A DNA stretch of 55,853 nucleotides. Source: Clostridia bacterium. GTDB lineage: Bacteria > Bacillota > Peptococcia > DRI-13 > SM3-B62. The notes under the pieces were generated by a model. It saw only the letters and a program-made list of their open reading frames with translations, was not told the origin of the DNA and did not search any database. Below are positions 35,160 to 37,387 of this stretch, one piece after another (the stretch's first letter is position 1; every line of letters starts with the position of its first letter). The DNA is taken from positions 1 through 55,853 of the forward strand of contig JAHDQS010000019.1 in the NCBI GenBank assembly GCA_018433675.1, in the 5' to 3' direction. The translations under genes were made by a program, and so were the position numbers.

Positions 35160-36200
35160 TCAGGAAACGGTAATGAGCAGATCTGTCAGGGGTATGACTT
35201 TGCCTATGGCAGCGGAGGGCATTTTAAGCCTTGCCAATTCCTTTAAGATTATAGCGGCCTCGTCAGGGGGACAGGTTAGGAGCAGTCCGCCTGAGGTTTG
35301 GGGGTCGAAGAGAATGTCTTCAAACCAGAGGGGGACATCCCGTAAGGTATAGCTTTCTGCGAGGTACCTTTTGTTGTTATAGGCTCCTGCCGGGATCAGG
35401 CCCATTTTCGCGTATTCTTTGGCTTCTTCGATTAAGGGTATTTTATCCTGTTCGAGGGCCAGGGATACTTTTGAGGCCTTGGCCATTTCATAGGCGTGGC
35501 CCATCAGTCCAAACCCGGTAACATCGGTACAGGCATGGATTTCGTGGTCGGCAATAATGTCGGCCGCATATTTATTTAAGGTAGACATAACCTCAATAGC
35601 TTTTTCCAGGGCTTCAGCAGAAGCCATTTCACCCTTGGCGGCGGTATTGATGATGCCGGTACCGAGGGGTTTGGTCAGGATGATAGTGTCGCCCGGTTTC
35701 GATCCGTAATTACGCAGGATTTTATCCGGATGCACGAGACCTGTTACAGAAAGACCATATTTAGGTTCGCTATCTTGAATGGAATGCCCTCCGGCAATCA
35801 CTGCCCCTGCTTCCAATACCTTTTCTGTCCCGCCTTGGAGAATCTGTCCTAATATATCAAGGGGCAGGTCGGAAGGGAAGCAGACGATATTCAGAGCAAG
35901 CAAAGGCTTACCGCCCATGGCATAAATATCGCTCAAGGCATTTGCTGCTGCTATTTGTCCGAAGGTATAGGGGTCATCAACAATAGGGGTGAAGAAGTCT
36001 AAGGTCTGGATAACGGCGTTTTCTTCATCCAATTTGTAGACAGCGGCATCATCTGATGTTTCGATACCTACCAGGAGGTTTGGGTCGTTCATTTGTGGCA
36101 ATTGGCATAGTAATTTTGATAGAACACCCGGTTCTATTTTTGCCGCTCACCCGGCGGCTTTTGTCATTGCCGTTAATCTTTTTATCATTTGCCTGTTCAT
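35160..36200 (-). CDS. selD: selenide, water dikinase, selenocysteine-containing
   Basis: Makes selenophosphate, the selenium donor for selenocysteine and selenouridine, from selenide and ATP. The gene begins at ATG 36200 behind AAGGTGGTG and reads MNRQMIKRLTAMTKAAG, an in-frame TGA (36149-36147), then AAKIEPGVLSKLLC and on into the conserved DPNLLVGIETSDDAAVY. This matches the family active site AAGUAAK, so the TGA encodes selenocysteine at residue 18, in the position that is Cys in E. coli SelD. A SECIS-like hairpin follows the TGA. Annotation from the first ATG after the TGA (36101) would lose the catalytic residue. The product is 346 aa. It is 26 nt downstream of the csdB-like gene and co-transcribed with it. 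Confidence 0.92.
36119..36149 (-). promoter_or_regulatory. bacterial SECIS-like hairpin with the UGA of selD
   Basis: Reading the minus strand: TGA at 36149-36147, nine nt, then stem ATAGAAC (36137-36131), loop CGGGT (36130-36126), stem GTTCTAT (36125-36119). The perfect 7-bp stem with G residues in a small apical loop about 18 nt past the UGA fits the spacing described for bacterial SECIS elements recognised by SelB. Confidence 0.8.
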
Positions 36201-36226
36201 CTGCTTGTCACCACCTTCTTTTTTGT

Positions 36227-37387
36227 TTAATAACCCTTACATATCTTACTGATGGCGTTAAGGGCATATTCAATTTCGTTTTTTGTATTAGAATGACTGA
36301 AACTGAACCGTATCGTGCCTTGGGGAAATGTTCCCAAGGTTTTGTGAGCGGAGGGAGAACAATGCAGGCCGCATCTGGTGGCAATGTGGAATTCTCTTGC
36401 CAAAAGAGTAGCAACCTCCGCGTTATCAAGCTGTAAGCGTGTGAAATCCAACGATACCAAAGCGGTGCGCCCCGTAGTATTGGGAAGTCCGCATAACGCG
36501 GGACCGTCCAGATTTTGAATGCCTTCGATGAAGGTCTTTGTTAGCCGGAGCTCTTCTTCTCGAATATTGGCAAGGCCTGTGCTTTGGATATATTTTAAGG
36601 CGGCATTTAAGCCGTAAATACCGGGGATATTCAAGGTGCCGGCCTCAAATTTATCCGGCAGATAGGAGGGCTGCTCTTCCGAATCGGATATACTGCCCGT
36701 GCCACCTTCGATAAAGGGTTCAAGCTGTTGGGCTAATCGGTCATTCAGTAGCATTCCGCCAATGCCTTGCGGTCCTAAGAGTCCTTTGTGACCGGTAAAA
36801 GCCAAGGCATCGGCCTGGTATTCCTGAAGATCAATATCCAGAAAGCCGGCGGTTTGGGCGGCATCAATGATAAATGTAAGTCCGTTTTCTTTACAGAGCT
36901 TGCCTATCTTTTGCAGGGGAAGGATGGTGCCGCAGACATTAGAGGCGTGGGTCATAATGACCGCTTTCGTATGTGGCTTAATGTGGACAGCAACATCGGC
37001 AGGGTCCAGAACGCCTTGCTCGTCACATCTTATTCTGGTATATTCGACTCCCCTCTTTTGCAGGCTGTTCAAAGGCCTCATGACCGCATTGTGTTCAAGG
37101 GAGGAGATTAGTACATGATCTCCGCTTTTTAAGCATCCTTTAATGAGAATGTTAAGGCTCTCGGTAACGTTTTTAGAAAAAACGACATTTGTAGGCTGGG
37201 AAGAACCGAACAGCGAGCAAATCAACTCGCGGGTTTCATAGACTGTATCGGCTGCCGCGTATGAACTGTCGTATGTTCCGCGGTTGATATTTGCGCCGAT
37301 ATTGATTAGAAAATTACTGATGCTCTCCGCCACCAATGGTGCTTTAGGGAAGGAGGTGGCGGCGTTATCAAAATAGATATTCTTCAT
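36227..37387 (-). CDS. cysteine desulfurase family protein, selenium-locus (CsdB-like)
   Basis: PLP enzyme of the class V aminotransferase fold releasing S (or Se) from cysteine (or selenocysteine). PLP lysine K201 in FTGHKGLLGPQG; the persulfide cysteine is C343 in RCGLHCSPSAH. 386 aa. It starts at ATG 37387 behind GGGAGGAG. Located directly before selD on the same strand, it most likely supplies selenium to SelD, as proposed for the desulfurases paired with selD in clostridia; this role is inferred from position. Confidence 0.92.
   Translation of the reverse strand: MKNIYFDNAATSFPKAPLVAESISNFLINIGANINRGTYDSSYAAADTVYETRELICSLFGSSQPTNVVFSKNVTESLNILIKGCLKSGDHVLISSLEHNAVMRPLNSLQKRGVEYTRIRCDEQGVLDPADVAVHIKPHTKAVIMTHASNVCGTILPLQKIGKLCKENGLTFIIDAAQTAGFLDIDLQEYQADALAFTGHKGLLGPQGIGGMLLNDRLAQQLEPFIEGGTGSISDSEEQPSYLPDKFEAGTLNIPGIYGLNAALKYIQSTGLANIREEELRLTKTFIEGIQNLDGPALCGLPNTTGRTALVSLDFTRLQLDNAEVATLLAREFHIATRCGLHCSPSAHKTLGTFPQGTIRFSFSHSNTKNEIEYALNAISKICKGY

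Follow-up and report, generated by a model that had tools for sequence, protein, structure and literature searches.

A selenophosphate synthetase gene with an active-site UGA almost certainly read as selenocysteine in a clostridial genome

Selenophosphate synthetases (SelD) that contain selenocysteine (Sec) have been described as the second most widespread family of prokaryotic selenoproteins. A total of 38 have been tabulated, and a 2006 paper had considered organisms whose only selenoprotein is SelD (PMC1794560). A consensus for bacterial SECIS elements (bSECIS) is available as well—a loop of 3-9 nt, a stem of 4-16 bp, a G in the first two loop positions, a UGA-to-loop distance of 16-37 nt, and a minimum free energy (MFE) limit of -7.5 kcal/mol (PMC13188914). 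The same source covers the SclA-selD operon of Enterococcus faecalis, in which a desulfurase-superfamily gene lies beside selD.

Here we examine a window of 55,853 nucleotides, contig JAHDQS010000019.1 of the Clostridia bacterium assembly GCA_018433675.1, together with the genome to which it belongs (3.0 Mb, 99.9% complete). We consider it nearly certain that one gene in the window encodes a SelD with a catalytic Sec at UGA 36149-36147, which SelB and Sec-tRNA-Sec would decode by means of a hairpin just downstream. The features that matter for this reading are as follows:

36227 to 37387, minus strand: cysteine desulfurase or Sec-lyase-like gene (TIGR01977, 451 bits, over the cut-off)
36207 to 36220, minus strand: probable ribosome-binding site AAGAAGGTGGTGAC, 5' of ATG 36200, read from the sequence
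35160 to 36200, minus strand: selD, selenophosphate synthetase, 346 aa, with predicted Sec at residue 18 (frame, and TIGR00476)
36147 to 36149, minus strand: in-frame TGA, predicted U18 (aligned with E. coli SelD Cys17; TGA or Cys in homologues)
36138 to 36140, minus strand: Lys21 codon (AAA) of the AAG-U-AAK motif (aligned with E. coli Lys20)
36119 to 36137, minus strand: putative SECIS hairpin, 7-bp stem (36137-36131 paired with 36125-36119) and 5-nt loop CGGGU (36130-36126), with covariation in homologues

The selD frame runs from ATG 36200 to a stop at 35160, and its sole internal stop is the TGA at codon 18. The terminal codon is again TGA (35162-35160), which we take to act as a stop. 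Mechanical ORF calling recovers 36101-35160 from a TTG start, a product of 313 aa that is 33 residues short and lacks the active-site loop; a sequence-only reading of this DNA had foreseen that a start at 36101 would cost the protein its catalytic residue and everything before residue 34, and the gene model is corrected here. In the sister species, AAAAGGAGGTGGT occupies roughly the position of the probable ribosome-binding site of the window gene, and no purine-rich ribosome-binding sequence could be read in front of TTG 36101.

Read through the TGA, the single frame shows the AAG-U-AAK motif and matches the NCBIfam SelD equivalog TIGR00476 almost end to end (419.9 bits against a cut-off of 125; profile positions 1-310 of 311). 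The top match of this product among solved structures (phmmer) is E. coli SelD (PDB 3u0o), which is homologous over its full length. U18 falls on Cys17 of the E. coli protein and K21 on Lys20, so that both the catalytic Cys/Sec and the catalytic Lys of the N-terminal loop are in place; the two proteins differ in that E. coli has Cys where the window protein would have Sec. By this homology, the protein would convert selenide and ATP to selenophosphate, using the Sec of its N-terminal selenium-binding loop for catalysis.

The organism was expected to carry selA, selB and selC, and all three are found in the genome. Profile searches recover SelA (TIGR00474, 586 bits) and SelB (TIGR00475, 389 bits), and a tRNA-Sec gene with anticodon TCA follows the selB match by about 55 nt. 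Another match above the cut-off of the tRNA-Sec model (L011) was rejected, being a tRNA-Ser by ARAGORN. One SelD-family match in the genome stands above the cut-off; two further hits, both weak, are to related families. Since this sole SelD is predicted to be Sec-dependent, the cell would need Sec to build its own Sec-making enzyme.

Conservation among relatives bears on the UGA directly. Each of 72 SelD loci drawn from two genome searches, which share a few genomes, has TGA or a Cys codon (TGC/TGT) at the aligned position, with no third residue; homologues that start downstream without an AAGCAAK- or AAGUAAK-like motif, which would have spoken against the sequence-only reading, were looked for and did not appear. 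Among 60 genomes, the SelB-specific domain SelB-wing_3 (PF09107) occurs in 21 of the 22 with a TGA-containing SelD, in 2 of the 8 with only a Cys form, and in 3 of the 30 with no SelD over the cut-off. The lone TGA genome without the domain (G024) is 80% complete and in 380 contigs. As a side observation, G005, G014 and G015 have the SelB domain and no SelD over the cut-off, possibly through incomplete assembly. The sister species encodes a SelD 95% identical in amino acids to that of the window; a single codon differs over codons 1-33, and 46 synonymous and 14 nonsynonymous codon differences lie beyond codon 33. The one difference indicates strong constraint before and just after the TGA, as would be expected for translated sequence that includes an RNA element.

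The predicted 7-bp stem and CGGGU loop are present as described; however, the reported spacing of about 18 nt fits the loop, 16 nt from the TGA, and not the stem, which starts at 9 nt. Loop size, stem length and the early G satisfy the bSECIS terms, and the 16-nt distance sits at the lower edge of the range. The MFE of the hairpin alone is -5.3 kcal/mol, short of the limit, and a 51-nt stretch reaches -8.1 kcal/mol only with an extra helix. Folding the region does form the stem, but its stability is unremarkable—matched by shuffled sequences (z -0.13 to -0.65), and marginal against synonymous re-coding (p 0.04-0.08). No Rfam match was found anywhere in the window, the hairpin included.

Covariation tells more. 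In 40 distinct Sec-SelD sequences that share the register, pairing at the four inner positions of the stem is seen in 91% of cells; sliding one side by 1-3 bases lowers the figure to 25-57%, and 13 Cys-SelD sequences give 37%. The third inner pair is T-A (19), G-C (11) or A-T (5) among the Sec forms, with about 12 parsimony state changes on a tree built from the remaining protein sequence, with Cys taken as one of the states. None of 20,000 shuffles reached the observed value, in a permutation test that ignores relatedness and is only indicative. In terms of codons, GAC (Asp) accompanies GGT or AGT, GCC or ACC (Ala/Thr) accompanies GGG, and GTC (Val) accompanies GGA; the window pairs GAA (Glu23) with GTT (Val26), so that its unusual Glu23-Val26 combination is accompanied by a re-paired stem. 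This makes a tidy case of covariation: a codon's third base varies in step with the amino acid encoded three codons further on, both being held by the need for the RNA to pair. Since the pairing covaries across Sec-SelD genes, a SECIS function for 36137-36119 is well supported at the sequence level. Evidence beyond chance lies in this covariation and in the conserved TGA/Cys column, not in hairpin energy. The SelD genes of Megasphaera, Colibacter and Anaeroglobus (L071, L078, L086), which also have TGA at the site, have a predicted hairpin in a shifted register.

Taken together, the TGA/Cys column, the machinery, the co-occurrence with SelB and the stem covariation bear out the proposal that SelD is a selenoprotein through the UGA at residue 18. 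The TGA might instead be a true stop, a sequencing error or a pseudogene mutation, leaving SelD dead or made from TTG 36101 without its active-site loop, and the truncated call of standard ORF finding is what this would predict; however, both the sister species and dozens of other genera have a TGA at this very codon, the codons upstream of it are conserved, the TTG lacks a purine-rich ribosome-binding sequence, and a full Sec machinery is present, all of which makes this account extremely improbable. We give just as little credence to decoding of UGA as something other than Sec, whether by general reassignment to Trp or Gly or by near-cognate read-through. The frame is indeed open past the UGA, but UGA also terminates selD, as it does 4 of another 18 large ORFs sampled from the window; homologues have Sec or Cys at this residue in every case, never Trp or Gly, and the genome has a tRNA-Sec gene alongside a covarying SECIS.

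It is also conceivable, if improbable, that Sec is inserted with the help of a structure other than 36137-36119, such as a GCCGC/GCGGC stem enclosing the UGA. This stem folds in the window too, the downstream hairpin is weak alone, and distant Sec-SelD genes of the Brocadia group and Zixiibacteriota show no hairpin in the window's register; lineages do differ. However, among Sec homologues the enclosing stem pairs in 53% of cells (21-43% when slid), compared with 91% for the downstream hairpin; it is not clearly conserved, and we rejected it as a conserved element. The active-site UGA is almost certainly read as selenocysteine, with SelB and Sec-tRNA-Sec binding, as we would expect, the hairpin that begins 9 nt past it.

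The desulfurase-family gene lies 26 nt upstream of selD on the same strand, and the two probably form one transcription unit. The sister species and SV3-B14.1 share this gene order; of the Sec-SelD loci examined, those with a directly upstream, same-strand homologue all belong to the nearest relatives (L021/L048, L024/L054). The arrangement is like that of E. faecalis in placing a desulfurase-superfamily gene beside selD, but the window gene scores 422 bits against the SclA model, below the cut-off of 525. We have therefore not filed it as SclA, and its possible role as a supplier of selenide is a guess.

Elsewhere in the genome, further features point to selenium use:

L092:1630 (G000:C53, about 206263): PrxU-type peroxiredoxin, a second selenoprotein gene by its in-frame TGA and hairpin
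L095, TGA at 1600 of the reverse complement (G000:C50, about 45978), minus strand: HesB/IscA-like TGA gene, motif GHGUGGPRLGFA
L090 and L091 (G000:C42:79625-80530, G000:C41:13590-14357): YbbB/SelU, the tRNA selenouridine marker, and YqeB, the selenium-cofactor marker, listed jointly

The peroxiredoxin (DFTFVUPTE) reaches 330 bits against the PrxU equivalog (cut-off 270), and a hairpin, CATAGC-AGTTG-GCTATG, follows its TGA by about 20 nt. The HesB/IscA-like protein (KGHGUGGPRLGFA) also has a downstream hairpin; its matches to HesB_rel_seleno and IscA_HesB_Se fall short of the cut-offs, and it is likely the third selenoprotein of the genome. Both genes would fit the same Sec-decoding system. Judged by eye, further in-frame TGA positions in the window gave no convincing second selenoprotein. 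Profile searches of the genome found no match for formate dehydrogenase alpha (Fdh-alpha), nor for the glycine reductase proteins GrdA and GrdB; the two Grd searches had no positive control and do not prove absence. With the Sec genes, YbbB/SelU and YqeB all present, this clostridial lineage has Sec-decoding genes and markers of two other selenium uses, so that every one of the three bacterial uses is represented by a marker (traits as defined in PMC9312934, PMC5029168). SelD would then supply the Sec pathway (SelA), tRNA 2-selenouridine (YbbB/SelU) and probably the selenium-cofactor pathway (YqeB). We suggest, tentatively and with somewhat more doubt than confidence, that the single, Sec-dependent SelD makes selenium use self-dependent in this organism, and that Sec decoding then persists chiefly to serve SelD and a small set of redox proteins (PrxU, HesB/IscA-like); this differs only in detail from the SelD-maintained Sec traits proposed in the literature.

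Set beside known Sec-containing SelD proteins (TIGR00476), the window protein shares the predicted Sec of the N-terminal selenium-binding loop and a downstream bacterial SECIS. The SelD proteins of Clostridium carboxidivorans P7 and C. tepidiprofundi are 70% and 67% identical to it, respectively (best segment), and their genes have TGA at the same codon and a hairpin in the same place, although with a different stem (AGGG...CCCT). The window has IEPGV where IGPGD/A/T is commoner in Sec-SelD, with stem bases that compensate, and nothing categorical differs. TGA-for-Sec SelD is already known in many other bacteria, and the self-dependence of a Sec-containing SelD is inherent to that class; the window gene is a well-supported but ordinary member of it and holds little surprise.
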